A stretch of DNA of 64,000 nt from Aromatoleum evansii (GTDB lineage Bacteria > Pseudomonadota > Gammaproteobacteria > Burkholderiales > Rhodocyclaceae), in the NCBI RefSeq assembly GCF_012910805.1, contig NZ_WTVK01000001.1, forward strand, positions 62,001-126,000, in the 5' to 3' direction. Each line of letters starts with the position of its first letter. Position 1 is the stretch's first letter. The notes under the pieces are model-generated. The model was not told the DNA's origin. It was given only the letters and a program-made list of their open reading frames with translations, and did no database searches. The position numbers and the translations under genes were made by a program. Positions 7,028 through 61,506 of this stretch are shown in pieces.

Positions 7028-9508
7028 ATGACTTCGTCCGAAAACGCTCTCCCTGCTGCATCTCCTGTCGAGGAGTGCTACCACTGCGGCCTGCCCGTCC
7101 CCTCGCAATCCAGCCACTACGTCGCGATCGACGGCGTCGAGCGGCGGATGTGTTGCGTGGGCTGCGAAGCGGTCGCACGATCGATCGTCGATAACGGGCT
7201 CAGCGACTACTACCGGCACCGCGACGCGATGCCCGAGCCGCAGAAGGAGGCGCTGCCTGCGGAATTGCAGGAGCTCGGGCTGTTCGACCATCCGGACTTC
7301 CAGAAGAGCTTCGTCGAGCCCGTCGGCGAGCATGAGCGTGAGGCGTCGCTGATCCTCGAGGGGATCACCTGTGCAGCCTGCGTCTGGCTGAACGAGCAGC
7401 ATGTGTCACGTCAGCCGGGTGTTTCGCTGGTCGATATCAATTACGCGACGCGGCGTGCGCGAGTGCGCTGGGACGAGCGCCGGACGCGGCTGTCGGACAT
7501 CCTCGCGGCGATCCAGGCGATCGGTTACCGAGCCTATCCCTATGATGCGGAGCGTTCCGAGCAGATCGCGCAACGCGAACGCCGCTCGATGCTGTGGCGC
7601 CTGTTCGTTGCAGGCTTTGGCATGATGCAGGTGATGATGTATGCCTTCCCGGCGTACATCGCCGGTGAAGGCGACCTGACGCCCGACATCGAATTGCTGA
7701 TGCGCTGGGCGAGCCTGGTGCTGACCCTGCCTGTGGTCCTGTACTCGGCTGCGCCGTTCTTCCGGCGTGCACTGCGTGATATCAGGTTGCGTCGTTTGGG
7801 CATGGACGTCCCGGTGGCGCTGGGGGTGGGCAGCGCGTTCATCGCGAGTGTCTGGGCAACCCTGACCAGCGGGGGCGAAGTCTATTTCGACTCGGTGACG
7901 ATGTTCGTGTTCTTCCTGCTGTGCGGGCGCTATCTCGAAATGATTGCGCGGCAGCGGGCCGTGCGCGGCGTGGAGGAGCTGGGGAAGGTGCTGCCTGCCT
8001 TCGCCGAGCGCCTTCCCGGCTGGCCGTCTCTGACCGGCGAGCGCGTTCCCGTGTCGCAACTCGCGGTGGGCGACGTCTTGCGCGTTCGTCCCGGCGAGGT
8101 TGTACCTGCCGACGGTGTCGTGATCGACGGCCGCAGCGATGCGAACGAGGCGCTCCTCACCGGGGAGAGCCTGCCGGTGCTCAAGTCGGTCGGCAGCGAG
8201 GTGACGGGGGGGAGCATCAACATCTCCAGCCCGCTGGCCATCCGGGTGGAGCAGACCGGCGATTCGACCCGTCTCGCGGCCATCCAGCGACTGATGGAGC
8301 GTGCTGCGAGCGAGAAGCCGGCGATCGCGCAGCAGTCCGACAGGGTTGCCGTCGTGTTCATCGTCGCCTTGCTGGTGCTCGCGTGCATTACCGGCGTGGT
8401 GTGGTATTTCGTCGATCCGTCACGTGCCCTATGGGTGTTCGTGTCGGTGCTGGTGGTGGCATGTCCGTGCGCACTGTCGCTCGCAACGCCCGTTGCGCTC
8501 ACCGTTGCGACCGATGCGCTGGCGCGGATGGGGGTGCTCGTGACCCGCGGCCATGCGATCGAGACGCTTGCCAACGCAAATCATTTCGTCTTCGACAAGA
8601 CCGGCACCCTGACGCTGGGCCTGCTGACGCTTGAGGAGACGCTGCCGCTCGCCGAGCTCGACGCCCGGCCGCTGCTGGCCATAGCCGCGGCGCTGGAGCA
8701 GTCTTCCGAGCATCCGGTTGCGCGGGCGTTGCGCGGTCCCGTCGATGACGCGGATCTCCCCGTTGCCCGGGATCTCGTTTCCGAGACGGGGCAGGGGGTC
8801 ACCGGAACGGTGGAGGGCGAGCGCTTCTGGCTGGGGCGTCCCGACTACGTGGCGGCGCATCTCGGCGGCGATCTGCCTCCGAGTCTCGATGCGATGTCGG
8901 GTCGCGGCGGTTCCGTCGTCGCGCTCGGCGGGCGGGGGGGCTGGCTGGGGCTTTTCCGTCTGGCCGACACTCCGCGTCCGGAGGCCGGCGAGCTGTGCGC
9001 GAAGCTGGCCGCGGAAGGCGTCCGCACTACCGTGCTGAGCGGCGACACACAAACCGTTGCGGCCGCGGTCGCCGCACGCCTGGGGCTGGATGAAGCGCAC
9101 GGCGGGATGACGCCTCAGGGTAAGCGGGACTTCATCGCAGGACTGCAGGCCGATCCGTCAGCCATTGTCGCCATGGTCGGCGACGGCGTGAATGATGCGC
9201 CGGTCCTCGCGCAGGCACATGTTTCGGTGGCGATGGGCGGAGGGACCGAACTCGCCCGCAACCAGGGCGACATCGTGCTGCTCAGCGAGAACCTTGCGGG
9301 GCTGGGGCGTGGCGTGGATCTGGCCCGGCGCACTCTCAGGGTCATCCGCCAGAACCTGTGGTGGTCGTTTGCCTACAATTTCACTTCGGTCCCGCTCGCG
9401 ATGGCGGGCCTGGTCACGCCCTGGATGGCCGGTATAGGCATGGCGGGAAGTTCGCTGCTTGTCGTGCTAAATGCCCTGCGCCTGCAGAATCAACGCCGGG
9501 TAAATTGA
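7028..9508 (+). CDS. ccoI: CcoI copper-transporting P1B-type ATPase for cbb3 oxidase assembly
   Basis: An 826-residue P-type ATPase of the CcoI/FixI group. The N-terminus has the CcoI-specific cysteine pairs CYHCGLPV and CCVGCEAV, then a heavy-metal domain with GITCAACVW. The core shows TGES, the membrane CPC motif (ACPCALSLATPVA), DKTGTLT phosphorylation site, SSEHPVA and GDGVNDAPVL. CcoI exports copper across the inner membrane to supply the CuB centre of CcoN. ATG 7028 starts the family-typical N-terminus although no ribosome site is obvious; ATG 6980 is possible. ccoS follows 6 bp downstream. Confidence 0.93.
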   Translation: MTSSENALPAASPVEECYHCGLPVPSQSSHYVAIDGVERRMCCVGCEAVARSIVDNGLSDYYRHRDAMPEPQKEALPAELQELGLFDHPDFQKSFVEPVGEHEREASLILEGITCAACVWLNEQHVSRQPGVSLVDINYATRRARVRWDERRTRLSDILAAIQAIGYRAYPYDAERSEQIAQRERRSMLWRLFVAGFGMMQVMMYAFPAYIAGEGDLTPDIELLMRWASLVLTLPVVLYSAAPFFRRALRDIRLRRLGMDVPVALGVGSAFIASVWATLTSGGEVYFDSVTMFVFFLLCGRYLEMIARQRAVRGVEELGKVLPAFAERLPGWPSLTGERVPVSQLAVGDVLRVRPGEVVPADGVVIDGRSDANEALLTGESLPVLKSVGSEVTGGSINISSPLAIRVEQTGDSTRLAAIQRLMERAASEKPAIAQQSDRVAVVFIVALLVLACITGVVWYFVDPSRALWVFVSVLVVACPCALSLATPVALTVATDALARMGVLVTRGHAIETLANANHFVFDKTGTLTLGLLTLEETLPLAELDARPLLAIAAALEQSSEHPVARALRGPVDDADLPVARDLVSETGQGVTGTVEGERFWLGRPDYVAAHLGGDLPPSLDAMSGRGGSVVALGGRGGWLGLFRLADTPRPEAGELCAKLAAEGVRTTVLSGDTQTVAAAVAARLGLDEAHGGMTPQGKRDFIAGLQADPSAIVAMVGDGVNDAPVLAQAHVSVAMGGGTELARNQGDIVLLSENLAGLGRGVDLARRTLRVIRQNLWWSFAYNFTSVPLAMAGLVTPWMAGIGMAGSSLLVVLNALRLQNQRRVN

Positions 9509-9514
9509 ACGTAT

Positions 9515-9718
9515 ATGGAAAGTCTTTACATCCTCGTGCCGCTTTCGGTGGTGCTGGTGTTCGTGATCGGCGTAATCTTCTGGTGGTCGTTGCGCTCGGG
9601 TCAGTACGATGACATGGAAGGCCCCGCCTATCGCATGCTCATGGACGACCGCGACCAGCCCGAAGGCCGTAAACCGGAACAGTCCGATGACCCTCCCGCG
9701 CAGGTCGGAAAACAGTGA
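9515..9718 (+). CDS. ccoS: CcoS cbb3 oxidase maturation protein
   Basis: A 67-residue protein with one N-terminal membrane helix (YILVPLSVVLVFVIGVIFW) followed by the CcoS/FixS signature WSLRSGQYDDMEGPAYRML. CcoS is needed for insertion of cofactors (heme and copper) into the CcoN subunit. It lies 6 bp after ccoI, the usual FixI-FixS pairing, and is followed by a 389-bp regulatory region before ccoN. Confidence 0.92.
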   Translation: MESLYILVPLSVVLVFVIGVIFWWSLRSGQYDDMEGPAYRMLMDDRDQPEGRKPEQSDDPPAQVGKQ

Positions 9719-9764
9719 TCCCCATGGTGGGGAAACACGTCCTCCGCTCATCGAGCGGGGTTTG

Positions 9765-9778
9765 TTGACCTACGTCAA
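9765..9778. promoter_or_regulatory. FNR/DNR box TTGAC-CTAC-GTCAA
   Basis: A good match to the FNR-family consensus TTGAY-N4-RTCAA. Its centre (9771.5) is exactly 32 bp from the centre of the -10-like hexamer CATACT (9801-9806), giving a predicted start near 9813 with the box at -41.5, the class II FNR geometry. It lies about 340 bp before ccoN, and a strong terminator intervenes. Confidence 0.75.
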
Positions 9779-9812
9779 CGCCCCGGAGAAGGAGGATTGG
9801 CATACTTTTCCA

Positions 9813-9919
9813 ACGGTTTTCGAGATTGGCGCGTCGCGATTCGATCGCGCCAATCACGTAAGGAATTTTTGTCTCTCTGTTGGGGTTGGGGGTGCGCTTG
9901 ATGCGCACCCTTTTTTTTT
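9813..9919 (+). ncRNA. Candidate FNR-activated small RNA between ccoS and ccoN
   Basis: Predicted from a class II FNR promoter (box 9765-9778, -10 CATACT 9801-9806) and a strong intrinsic terminator ending at 9919. The expected transcript is about 107 nt. It has a 5' hairpin (GATTGGCGCG 9824-9833 with CGCGCCAATC 9846-9855), an unpaired pyrimidine stretch with TCTCTCT at 9872-9878, a G-rich segment, and the terminator hairpin. No convincing open frame lies in it. The layout resembles FNR-dependent sRNAs such as FnrS, with TCTCTCT able to pair with purine-rich ribosome sites. The alternative is that this is only an attenuated leader of ccoNOQP. Confidence 0.5.
9890..9919 (+). terminator. Strong Rho-independent terminator upstream of ccoN
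   Basis: Perfect 8-bp stem GGGTGCGC (9890-9897) and GCGCACCC (9903-9910), loop TTGAT, followed by nine T residues (9911-9919). It separates the FNR box from ccoN, so FNR-driven transcripts starting at about 9813 should mostly stop here. Confidence 0.88.
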
Positions 9920-9926
9920 GCCCGAA

Positions 9927-9961
9927 AGCATGGGCTATGATGCAGTAATTAAAACCATGCT
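9927..9961. promoter_or_regulatory. Inverted repeat AGCATGG-N21-CCATGCT upstream of ccoN
   Basis: Perfect 7-bp arms at 9927-9933 and 9955-9961 flank an AT-rich core. The region 9920-10107 must hold the ccoN promoter if the terminator before it works. Apart from this repeat and a GGGT-ATTTTC-ACCC element near 9985, I see no second FNR box. Confidence 0.35.
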
Positions 9962-10107
9962 GGCAACAGGTTTTTTTTGTAATTGGGTATTTTCACCCAC
10001 TACTGCAGTGCAATAGAATGTCGGCCGTTGTCACGAGCCCGTGGCGAGCCGTTGCACATGCTCTCCCGGACTGGTGCTGAAGTTTTCTTCATCTCAAGGG
10101 GAGTTCC

Positions 10108-11532
10108 ATGCAATCGCAGGCGACTTATAACTACAACGTCGTCCGCCAGTTCTCCATCATGACAGTGGTGTGGGGCGTGGTGGGCATGCTGGTGGGGGTG
10201 ATCGTCGCAGCGCAGCTTGTCTGGCCCGAGCTCAATCTGGGCGAGTGGCTGCATTTCGGCAGGCTGCGTCCGCTCCATACGAACGCCGTGATCTTTGCAT
10301 TTGGCGGTTGTGCGCTGTTCGCGACCTCGTATTTCGTGGTCCAGCGGACCTGTCATACGCCGCTGTTCGCACCCTGGCTCGCAAGCTTCACCTTCTGGGG
10401 CTGGCAGCTGGTGATCGTGCTGGCGGCGATCTCCCTGCCGCTGGGCTTCACGTCCGGCAAGGAATATGCCGAGCTCGAATGGCCGATCGACATCCTGATC
10501 GCAGTGGTGTGGGTGTCGTATGCAATCGTGTTCTTCGGCACGATCGCCAAGCGCAAGACCAGCCACATCTACGTAGCGAACTGGTTCTTCGGCGGCTTCA
10601 TCCTCACGGTCGCGCTGCTGCACATCGTCAATAGCGCCGCGCTGCCGGTCAGTCTGACGAAGTCCTACTCGGCCTACGCCGGCGTGCAGGACGCGATGAT
10701 CCAGTGGTGGTACGGCCACAACGCAGTGGGCTTCTTCCTGACTGCGGGCTTCCTCGGCATGATGTACTACTTCGTGCCGAAGCAGGCCGAGCGTCCGGTG
10801 TATTCCTATCGCCTGTCGGTGGTGCACTTCTGGGCGCTGATCTTCACCTACATGTGGGCGGGTCCGCACCACCTGCACTACACGGCGCTGCCCGACTGGA
10901 CCCAGTCGGTGGGCATGATCTTCTCGCTGATCCTGCTGGCGCCGTCGTGGGGTGGCATGATCAACGGCGTGATGACGCTTTCGGGCGCATGGCACAAGCT
11001 GCGTACCGATCCGATCCTCAAGTTCCTGATCACCGCGCTGTCCTTCTACGGCATGTCGACCTTCGAAGGTCCGATGATGTCGATCAAGACGGTCAATGCC
11101 CTGTCGCACTACACCGACTGGACCGTCGGTCACGTGCATTCGGGCGCGCTCGGCTGGGTCGCGATGATCTCTATCGGTTCGATGTACTACCTGATCCCGC
11201 GCATGTACGGCAAGACCCAGATGTACTCGGTCGGGCTGATCAACACGCACTTCTGGATCGCGACGATCGGCATCGTTCTCTACATCGCCTCGATGTGGAT
11301 CGCCGGCGTGATGCAGGGGCTGATGTGGCGCGCGACGAACCCGGACGGCACGCTGACCTATTCCTTTGTCGAGAGCGTGAAGGCGAGCTATCCCTTCTGG
11401 GCGATCCGCCTCGCAGGCGGGGTGATGTTCCTGACCGGCATGCTCATCATGTTCTACAACATGGTCAAGACGATGGCAGGCGAGAAGGCGTACGAGGCGC
11501 CCGTGGTCGCCCCCGCTGCCGCTCACGCTTAA
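10108..11532 (+). CDS. ccoN: cbb3-type cytochrome c oxidase catalytic subunit CcoN
   Basis: A 474-residue heme-copper oxidase subunit with about 12 membrane helices. Ligand motifs are visible: [12 protein letters not shown] (low-spin heme b His), [13 protein letters not shown] (CuB His), [14 protein letters not shown] (the CuB His pair, with the preceding FTYMW tyrosine that forms the His-Tyr crosslink in C-family oxidases) and [12 protein letters not shown] (heme b and b3 histidines). It reduces oxygen to water with high affinity. Start ATG 10108 follows AAGGGGAG. First gene of ccoNOQP; ccoO follows after 15 bp. Confidence 0.97.
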
Positions 11533-15667: not shown

Positions 15668-16111
15668 TCAGCGGTAAACGAGGACGGGGGTCTTGCTGTG
15701 GGTGAGAACTTTTTGCGTCTCGCTGCCCAGAAGCAGGCCGGCGATGCCGCGGCGCCCGTGCGACGCCATGAAGATCAGGTCGCAGCCGTGACGCTCGGCC
15801 GCGTCGATGATCGCTTCATAGGGGACTTCATTGACGATTGTGTCGGTGTCCGCGGTGACGCCGGCTCCGTCCGCTGCGCTCTTCGCCGCGTCGAGGATGC
15901 GTTTTGCCTCGTCGGCTGCCGCCTTGCCGAACTGTTCCGGAGTGGTGGGATCGATCAACGCCCCCTCACCGTAAATCGGCATCGGGAAGTCGGGTTGCGC
16001 ATAGAAGAACGTGATGCGAGCCCCGGCGTCCTTGGCGAAGGAAACGGCGCGGGCGATGGTGCTCTCGGACAGCGGGGAGCCGTCCGTGGGGACCAGTATG
16101 TGCTTGAACAT
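15668..16111 (-). CDS. Universal stress protein, UspA family
   Basis: A 147-residue single-domain Usp. The N-terminal beta strand FKHILVPTDGS, the pocket Asp in LVPTDGSPLS, and the nucleotide loop ASHGRRGIAG followed by LLGSETQKVLTHS fit the ATP-binding subclass (G-2X-G-9X-G(S/T)). Usp proteins of this kind in anaerobes are often FNR-controlled and support survival without oxygen. The gene is divergent from the nuclease/PHA synthase pair. A TATAAT reads toward it at 16151-16146, placing the FNR box (16195-16208) near -61.5. Confidence 0.88.
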   Translation of the reverse strand: MFKHILVPTDGSPLSESTIARAVSFAKDAGARITFFYAQPDFPMPIYGEGALIDPTTPEQFGKAAADEAKRILDAAKSAADGAGVTADTDTIVNEVPYEAIIDAAERHGCDLIFMASHGRRGIAGLLLGSETQKVLTHSKTPVLVYR

Positions 16112-16194: not shown

Positions 16195-16208
16195 TTGATT
16201 CCCGTCAA
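16195..16208. promoter_or_regulatory. FNR/DNR box TTGAT-TCCC-GTCAA shared by divergent genes
   Basis: Near-perfect FNR-family site. Toward the plus strand, TATTCA (16231-16236) is centred 32 bp away, giving class II geometry for the nuclease/PHA synthase transcript (start near 16243, 13 bp before the ATG). Toward the minus strand it lies at about -61.5 for uspA. Confidence 0.78.
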
Positions 16209-19491: not shown

Positions 19492-19505
19492 TTGACCCCT
19501 GTCAA
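19492..19505. promoter_or_regulatory. FNR/DNR box TTGAC-CCCT-GTCAA between convergent genes
   Basis: An FNR-family site in the 114-bp space between the 3' ends of phaC (plus) and the dnr-like gene (minus). GAGAAT (19528-19533) is centred exactly 32 bp away on the plus side, so the predicted transcript would start near 19540 and run antisense into the dnr-like gene. GGGGG-CGCTA-CCCCC just upstream (19475-19489) may close the phaC transcript. Confidence 0.6.
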
Positions 19506-23351: not shown

Positions 23352-23365
23352 TTGATCCACGTCAA
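23352..23365. promoter_or_regulatory. FNR box TTGAT-CCAC-GTCAA between fnr and hemN
   Basis: Strong FNR-family site. The hexamer 32 bp toward hemN is GATCGT (23388-23393), a weak -10; the mirrored position toward fnr (GCCACT on the minus strand) is weaker. Activation of hemN is the likelier role. The predicted hemN start near 23400 favours the second in-frame ATG (23420) as its initiator. Confidence 0.75.
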
Positions 23366-44438: not shown

Positions 44439-44515
44439 GCGCCCGTAGCTCAGTTGGATAGAGTACCTGGCTACGAACCAGGGGGTCGTGGGTTCGAATC
44501 CTGCCGGGCGCGCCA
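44439..44515 (+). tRNA. tRNA-Arg (ACG), copy 1
   Basis: A 77-nt tRNA with CCA. Acceptor GCGCCCG pairs with CGGGCGC; anticodon arm CCTGG-CTACGAA-CCAGG gives ACG (inosine-modified by TadA). It is 38 nt after tRNA-Ser with no separate promoter, so it is probably in the same transcript. Confidence 0.95.
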
Positions 44516-44635: not shown

Positions 44636-44712
44636 GCGCCCGTAGCTCAGTTGGATAGAGTACCTGGCTACGAACCAGGGGGTCGTGGGTTCGAATCCTG
44701 CCGGGCGCGCCA
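44636..44712 (+). tRNA. tRNA-Arg (ACG), copy 2
   Basis: Identical in sequence to the copy at 44439, including CCA. It has its own strong promoter and terminator, so the second copy is independently expressed. Confidence 0.95.
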
Positions 44713-60786: not shown

Positions 60787-60862
<76 letters not shown>

Positions 60863-60877
60863 GTCGAAAGAATTGCA

Positions 60878-60953
60878 GTCCCCATCGTCTAGAGGCCTAG
60901 GACACCGCCCTTTCACGGCGATAACCGGGGTTCGAATCCCCGTGGGGACGCCA
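60878..60953 (+). tRNA. tRNA-Glu (TTC), cassette 1
   Basis: 76 nt with CCA. Acceptor GTCCCCA pairs with TGGGGAC; anticodon arm CCGCC-CTTTCAC-GGCG gives TTC. Confidence 0.95.
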
Positions 60954-61025
60954 ATATGCAGCGAGGCGTCGAGGTATAATGACGAGTCGCAAGCCGGTCG
61001 GTAAAGCCGGGCAAAAGGTCAGCGC

Positions 61026-61102
61026 GGAGTGGTAGTTCAGTTGGTTAGAATACCGGCCTGTCACGCCGGGGGTCGCGGGTTCGAGCCCCGTCCACTCCGC
61101 CA
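61026..61102 (+). tRNA. tRNA-Asp (GTC), cassette 1
   Basis: 77 nt with CCA. Acceptor GGAGTGG pairs with CCACTCC; anticodon arm CCGGC-CTGTCAC-GCCGG gives GTC. Confidence 0.95.
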
Positions 61103-61196: not shown

Positions 61197-61272
<76 letters not shown>

Positions 61273-61290
61273 ATGAAGCACAAAGACGTT

Positions 61291-61366
61291 GTCCCCATCG
61301 TCTAGAGGCCTAGGACACCGCCCTTTCACGGCGATAACCGGGGTTCGAATCCCCGTGGGGACGCCA
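61291..61366 (+). tRNA. tRNA-Glu (TTC), cassette 2
   Basis: Identical to the cassette 1 copy, 76 nt with CCA. Confidence 0.95.
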
Positions 61367-61429
61367 TATAATGCAAGGCGTCGAGAAGACGAGTTGCAGC
61401 CGGAAAAGTTGCCGGCAACTGGTCAGCGC

Positions 61430-61506
61430 GGAGTGGTAGTTCAGTTGGTTAGAATACCGGCCTGTCACGCCGGGGGTCGCGGGTTCGAGCCCCGTCCACT
61501 CCGCCA
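61430..61506 (+). tRNA. tRNA-Asp (GTC), cassette 2
   Basis: Identical to the cassette 1 copy, 77 nt with CCA. Confidence 0.95.

Follow-up and report, generated by a model that had tools for sequence, protein, structure and literature searches.

Organization of the ccoS-ccoN intergenic region

The stretch of DNA analysed here, referred to throughout as the window, comprises 64,000 nucleotides of an Aromatoleum evansii contig, and carries on its plus strand two cco genes with a predicted small RNA (sRNA) gene between them. The upstream gene (9515-9718) is one that we take to be ccoS from its position and neighbourhood, and the downstream gene (10108-11532) is named ccoN from its sequence and neighbourhood. 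A terminator-like hairpin, recognized by pattern only, lies 3' of ccoS (9742-9760), and is followed on the same strand by an FNR box, TTGACCTACGTCAA (9765-9778), that is a perfect match to TTGAYN4RTCAA. The box is at the class II position, with the element CATACT (9801-9806) located where the -10 of a class II FNR promoter is found, an arrangement that is expected of an FNR-activated base-pairing sRNA. With the centre of the box at 9771.5, class II geometry places the predicted transcription start at 9813. A pattern scan identified an intrinsic terminator, GGGGGTGCGC-TTGAT-GCGCACCC with nine T residues (9888-9919, stem 9888-9912), and promoter geometry and terminator together predict an FNR-activated sRNA of ~107 nucleotides (9813-9919, plus strand), for which there are no transcript data. 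The predicted transcript ends 188 nucleotides before the AUG codon of ccoN at 10108. The original prediction of a class II FNR box, a -10 element and a predicted transcript of this length terminating well short of ccoN was thus borne out. Between the sRNA terminator and ccoN, a candidate sigma70-type promoter for ccoN, TTTTCA-18-TAGAAT (9990-10019, plus strand), can be identified by pattern only, with 9 of 12 matches to the consensus.

Sites that match TTGAYN4RTCAA with at most one mismatch are not rare in the window (6 versus 2.95 expected), and terminator-like sites in the interval 9400-10300 number 4, versus a shuffle mean of 0.9. Three other perfect FNR boxes are present in the window (16195-16208, 19492-19505 and 23352-23365), the first of them positioned 84 nucleotides before a minus-strand gene (15668-16111) that by eye resembles a universal stress protein gene. 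Elsewhere in the window, a block of three tRNA genes is present in two consecutive copies of identical score (60787-61099 and 61197-61503), and one tRNA gene is repeated (44439-44512 and 44636-44709), suggesting local tandem duplication.

The segment from 9811 to 9920 has a predicted folding energy of -44.9 kcal/mol (z -4.8), surpassing 200 of 200 dinucleotide shuffles. The fold includes a 5' hairpin (9824-9855, plus strand) with a perfect 10-bp stem formed by 9824-9833 and 9846-9855. Further downstream on the same strand, a conserved core, UUUUUGUCUCUCUGUUGGGGUUGGGGGUGCG (9866-9896), is the proposed pairing region, as judged from an alignment of relatives and from complementary sites in other genes, and runs into the 5' arm of the terminator. 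Pairing had initially been assigned to an unpaired TCTCTCT stretch; the conserved region is longer than this stretch and includes GUUGGGGUUGGGG, and the description as unpaired holds only in part, because in the predicted ensemble the UCUC of the core can pair with the adjoining GGGG, leaving the core only partly unpaired.

Recurrence across the Rhodocyclales

The FNR box, -10 element, 5' hairpin, core and terminator form a unit that is found repeatedly in the Rhodocyclales. With the DNA as query, matches were obtained in 35 of 61 genomes at an E value of 0.1, 29 of them within the window's family; the six from outside it are without exception weak (E 0.014-0.098). A perfect FNR box is present 74-111 nucleotides 5' of the core in 29/29 family loci (L003-L031). 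In the alignment of 29 relatives, UCUCUGUUGGGGUU and GGGUGCG are invariant in 29/29, as are TCTCTGTTGGGGTT, GGGTGCG, CGCACCC and seven T residues; the 5' half diverges, and the predicted transcripts range from 69 to 108 nucleotides. The range of lengths and the divergent 5' halves argue against the RNA functioning as the messenger for a small peptide, a reading that is barely conceivable. The original prediction held that the transcript contains no ORF, which needs qualification in that a 135-amino acid frame (9609-10016) spans the sRNA, and is the one feature that favours a peptide; the frame begins within ccoS and passes through the terminator.

A scan of named genomes for the core recovered at least 119 loci. 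Among the matches listed, 115 of 119 loci possess a perfect FNR box 67-143 nucleotides upstream of the core, against a background expectation of 0.17; two of the four lacking one (L220 and L240) are truncated by a contig end, and the other two (L202 and L228) show none. For the same listed matches, the T-run is kept in 118/119 loci, a CcoS or CcoI match lies upstream in 111/119, and ccoN lies at most 800 nucleotides downstream in 96/119. At the offset from the box expected for class II, 102/111 loci have a -10-like hexamer, versus 9/111 after shuffling. Taxa represented among the matches listed (80 loci) are Azoarcus, Aromatoleum, Thauera, Dechloromonas, Azonexus, Accumulibacter, Zoogloea and Sulfuritalea, together with metagenome-assembled genomes (MAGs) among the listed matches that are labelled more broadly as Betaproteobacteria, Burkholderiales or, once, Gammaproteobacteria.

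Of 150 family genomes, 119 contain an exact 12-mer taken from the core complement, and 31 do not. In the wider order, a covariance model matched 26 of 300 genomes, nine in the family and 17 outside. Eleven of the out-of-family matches were opened, of which two strong ones (G333 and G352) are genuine loci with ccoI, ccoS and ccoN around them; the nine weak ones (L101-L109) are bare terminators by their look, and were rejected as sRNA loci. The core was unmatched in plasmids. Four loci (L123 and L124 of G140, L135 of G093, and L081 of G100) are sRNA-like variants with an altered terminator arm and the same core complement; the two variants of G140 are on separate small contigs, and may represent a paralogue or an assembly duplication.

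Conservation of RNA structure

The 5' regions of 137 loci have a mean folding z of -2.24, versus -0.43 for an equally long stretch past the terminator. In 26 short-form relatives, changes on both sides of the 5' helix are found in 7/7 pairs, with 84% of cells paired, and in a partner-sliding control on the same relatives whole-structure pairing falls from 91.5% into the range of 41.5-60.8%. By this covariation, the predicted 5' hairpin is shown to be preserved as a structure and not as a sequence. In the 29-sequence alignment, covariation is evident in only 1 of 13 pairs because the 5' halves of these sequences do not align. The terminator stem hardly varies among relatives and is thus uninformative with respect to pairing, its near-invariance suggesting that the 5' arm of the predicted terminator is also under sequence constraint.

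Relationship of the RNA to ccoN

An alternative explanation is that the RNA is a cis-acting attenuator or leader of ccoNOP, whereby transcription driven by FNR would start at 9813 and the terminator would set the flow into ccoN. The position of the RNA 188 nucleotides before ccoN on the same strand is in keeping with such a role, as are the presence of ccoN within 800 nucleotides in 96/119 listed loci and the lack, in the window's own clade, of a second perfect FNR box before ccoN. An attenuator would be expected always to lie in cis to ccoN and to supply its only FNR-controlled promoter. This expectation is not met, as a second, separate perfect FNR box lies between the core and ccoN in 90 of the 96 listed loci having ccoN within 800 nucleotides, and 10 listed loci on uncut contigs keep the sRNA with no ccoN match downstream. 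The T-run kept in 118/119 listed loci, the conservation of the core beyond what a terminator needs, and the complementary sites at other genes also count against attenuation, which was rejected as the main explanation and is regarded as improbable.

It had been noted in the original prediction that the FNR site at this place usually serves the cco operon directly, making an intervening terminator odd. In modified form this is correct, as most of the relatives examined have an FNR site 5' of the sRNA as well as one 5' of ccoN; in the window's clade, no perfect second box is found. Because of this absence, some read-through into ccoN is still possible, and a dual function can be envisaged, in which the RNA acts as an sRNA and partial read-through feeds ccoN at low oxygen, mainly in clades such as that of the window that are without a second FNR box. 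Apart from the FNR-dependent promoter, only the sigma70-type candidate with its 9/12 matches was seen as a possible promoter of ccoN, which lends some support to a dual function; the strength of the terminator, with its nine T residues, does not. The available portion of one study (PMC9765128) reports expression of the Cco system under the conditions studied, as would be accounted for by a constitutive promoter of ccoN. A dual function is accordingly doubtful, while remaining a genuine possibility. Of the outcomes initially left open (sRNA, attenuated leader, or both), a stand-alone sRNA is supported by the recurring unit, the covarying hairpin and the sites before the starts of other genes, and the attenuator is weakened.

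Several loci differ in arrangement. At L217 (a Zoogloea MAG) and L251, the sRNA lies 3' of ccoS and an ndk-like frame, identified by eye, is downstream of it. At L239 and L256, Rrf2-like and FNR-like frames (also by eye) follow the sRNA in place of ccoN, which may place the sRNA next to its presumed activator. In the same-genus relative L014, the second FNR box directly adjoins a -10-like TACAAT before ccoN, a position that would fit repression by FNR rather than activation.

Complementary sites in the own genome

Sites with at most one mismatch number 8 in the own genome, versus 6 for a reversed control; complementary sites are enriched by position, and not clearly by number. The pattern CAACAGAGA-N4-26-ATG occurs at six places, versus none for the reversed control, and a rough estimate based on the composition of ten chosen window leaders and an assumed 5400 genes gives 0.5 such sites expected at true starts. 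The six places are boxC, a glutathione transferase gene, dmpE (whose NCBIfam score of 394 bits is slightly under the cut-off of 409), dmpF, a small frame that by eye resembles a pilin, and the interior of an SDR gene, away from its start. An own-genome site in an SDR gene on C266 and its counterpart in G005 are both located within coding sequence. Two additional sites are found at boxD, which has a GTG start, and at a ferredoxin gene.

The boxC and boxD genes are in divergent arms of the box (benzoyl-CoA epoxidation) cluster, and each of their sites is unchanged in G009. The meta-cleavage genes dmpE and dmpF are adjacent; G002 and G012 retain the dmpF site, and neither of these two genomes has the dmpE site in exact form. 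By our reading of the sequences, the complement overlaps the Shine-Dalgarno region in boxC, boxD and the glutathione transferase gene, and is upstream of it in dmpF and the ferredoxin gene. Hfq is encoded in the genome.

The ferredoxin leader (L033, G000:C280:10900-11016) contains the hairpin GGGGTGCG...CGCACCCC and, 3' of it, CCAACCCCAGCAGAGA, complementary to both the core and the terminator arm of the sRNA, and the same leader occurs in nine other same-genus genomes. It may represent a strong target or a sponge. This site corresponds to a weaker second BLAST match in the own genome (C280), which was rejected as a second copy of the sRNA because it is antisense, has no T-run and lies within the ferredoxin leader (YfhL-type by NCBIfam); the match is to a complement of the core.

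Complementary sites in other genomes

Including the own genome, the ferredoxin leader site was found in 10 of 17 same-genus genomes. Twenty core-like places were fetched, of which 17 match the core region, 16 of them in leaders and the other within the opening codons of an SDR gene; the remaining three are not about the core, or are in coding DNA of unrelated genes. Ten of the 16 leader places belong to ferredoxin, with others including a 2Fe-2S ferredoxin and TusE/DsrC. These places had been picked by their similarity to the sRNA, and a controlled test was therefore made in eight genomes, in which sites with at most one mismatch to CCCCAACAGAGA were scored as successes if an ATG frame of at least 60 amino acids began 12-60 nucleotides downstream. 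There are 54 such places, eight of which are sRNA genes, leaving 46. An ATG frame is found downstream of 25/46 core-complement sites, versus 6/30 for a reversed motif and 4/30 for a motif that keeps CAGAGA (30 of 34 places fetched), with Fisher p values of 0.0026 and 0.00026, respectively, and 4.7e-5 for the pooled controls. Two of the genomes (G009 and G012) carried previously known ferredoxin sites, and hence the test was repeated without these sites, giving 23/44 and a pooled p of 1.3e-4.

The frame rule is mechanical, and lets some spurious frames pass in all three sets. Nor are the 46 sites all independent, since G009 and G012 share the ferredoxin site, and G106 and G153, which are of one genus, share a FolE2 site. 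A comparison of pairing energies was excluded as a test, because sites preselected for complementarity bias it. The AGAGA half of the motif looks like a Shine-Dalgarno sequence and part of the enrichment may thus be generic, although the count for the CAGAGA-keeping control is low.

With most single-hit genomes left out, 63 distinct family places with the exact 12-mer were fetched, comprising 41 sRNA genes, 4 apparent sRNA variants and 18 others. Fifteen of the 18 satisfy the ATG-frame rule, one of them (L117) doubtfully. The candidate genes are proA-like, acetaldehyde dehydrogenase, an ABC binding protein, TusE (twice), ErpA, isocitrate lyase, an FAD-dependent oxidoreductase, SucA, DsrE-like proteins, an HbpS-like protein and others, some of them named by eye. 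Neither sucA nor TusE qualifies as a family-wide target: the sucA site of G170 is missing from 30 other sucA leaders, where the longest exact complement is 7 nucleotides, and TusE/DsrC homologues beyond L044, L114 and L131 reach at most 8 nucleotides. Targets vary between lineages.

A base-pairing sRNA should possess a conserved region complementary to the start regions of mRNAs, and such a region is present here, partly unpaired in the predicted ensemble. The invariance of the core and its repeated GGGG would also be compatible with an RNA that titrates a protein through a G-rich or CU-rich core rather than pairing with messages; given that core-complementary sites before gene starts exceed the controls, titration is thought very improbable.

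A model for oxygen-dependent control

It is considered highly probable that 9765-9919 is a stand-alone gene for an FNR-activated, trans-acting base-pairing sRNA that masks ribosome-binding sites, partly those of aerobic aromatic catabolism, with expression, Hfq binding and regulation being inferred. Conservation of promoter, terminator, structure and core was observed directly, as was the non-random placement of complementary sites. In the absence of transcript, FNR-binding or Hfq data, activation by FNR, pairing, translational repression and assistance by Hfq are deductions from these observations. At low oxygen, FNR would occupy the class II box and drive synthesis of a transcript of ~107 nucleotides ending at the intrinsic terminator, which the 5' hairpin probably protects. 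The invariant core GUCUCUCUGUUGGGGUUGGGG would then pair with CCCCAACCCCAACAGAGAGA-type sites, whose placement at or just upstream of ribosome-binding sites is observed, and the paired sRNA, probably with Hfq, would reduce translation of the target messages. Candidate targets in the own genome are boxC, boxD, dmpE, dmpF, the YfhL-type ferredoxin and the glutathione transferase. The likely role of such a circuit would be to turn down the aromatic catabolism that requires oxygen, along with some redox functions, once oxygen is lacking, with ccoNOP on its own promoter.

A more far-reaching hypothesis, put forward tentatively, is that facultative anaerobes degrading aromatic compounds have in this sRNA a hitherto missing switch that depends on oxygen and acts after transcription, with FNR driving synthesis of the RNA when oxygen is absent. 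By blocking translation of boxC, boxD and the meta-cleavage genes, the sRNA would allow both pathways to stay transcribed ('open') while the workable one is favoured, and the same core would be redeployed across the Rhodocyclales on lineage-specific targets, including sulfur relay and Fe-S proteins, isocitrate lyase and monooxygenases. According to the part of the study that is available, Aromatoleum aromaticum EbN1, of the same genus, contains transcripts and proteins of both benzoate pathways, and likewise the TCA-cycle proteins, in essentially all conditions, and has metabolites of the benzoate pathways only under the matching electron acceptor (PMC9765128). So far as that portion goes, expression of both pathways argues against complete silencing of the box pathway; partial or transient control is still possible.

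Among the papers listed from the open-licence PMC literature, no description of an FNR-dependent sRNA in these bacteria was found, nor any paper on this RNA. Rhodocyclales bacteria are important in denitrification, in phosphorus removal from wastewater, and in the anaerobic degradation of aromatic pollutants, and the present analysis adds to the bacteria of these processes an order-wide, very strongly conserved predicted sRNA.

Comparison with known RNAs

FnrS of Enterobacteria is activated by FNR, ends at a Rho-independent terminator, and represses functions that are not needed without oxygen. The present RNA shares the predicted FNR activation, a size of ~100-120 nucleotides and the Rho-independent terminator, and differs in its genomic place between ccoS and ccoN. 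The FnrS model (presumably Rfam RF01796) was unmatched at its gathering score in the window and in 18 relatives' loci, and was likewise unmatched up to an E value of 5 in 9700-10110.

The closest lax Rfam scores were those of SorX (RF02784; 25.8 bits, E 0.00035) and SorY (RF02651; 25.5 bits, E 0.0035), which cover the end of the hairpin, the core and the terminator, and are under the gathering scores of 46.6 and 111, respectively. Our guess is that these scores stem from a common appearance, U-rich sequence together with a terminator. With no gathering score reached in the window or in the 18 relatives' loci, membership in FnrS, AniS or any other Rfam family was rejected. Another cco-linked RNA, the HRC-8-4 motif of Rhodobacterales, is a conserved terminator-like RNA adjoining cco genes and, judging from the accessible part of its description (PMC8632094), is different from the present sRNA.

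In the betaproteobacterial genus Neisseria, the sibling sRNAs NmsRA and NmsRB have a UC-rich, single-stranded stretch that is flanked by stem-loops and bears anti-Shine-Dalgarno motifs, and lower the levels of TCA-cycle enzymes (PMC5362039, available sections). To the extent that those sections describe it, this pairing mode is similar to that proposed here; the NmsR sRNAs differ in being relA-linked, and no FNR control is mentioned for them in the same sections.

Neisseria also possesses AniS (gonococcal FnrS), an sRNA made under oxygen limitation, on the evidence of the accessible portions of two reports (PMC4176332, PMC5362039). AniS (RF02274) is of similar size, its Rfam model having 106 positions; the score of its model was 18.8 bits versus a gathering score of 50, and the model was unmatched at gathering in 18 relatives' loci. 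As stated in the available part of one of these reports, the targets of AniS/FnrS remain elusive (PMC5362039), unlike the present sRNA, for which candidate targets can be named. By analogy, and with expression and regulation inferred, the putative sRNA of the ccoS-ccoN region, while reaching no Rfam threshold, would work in the manner of FnrS and AniS.
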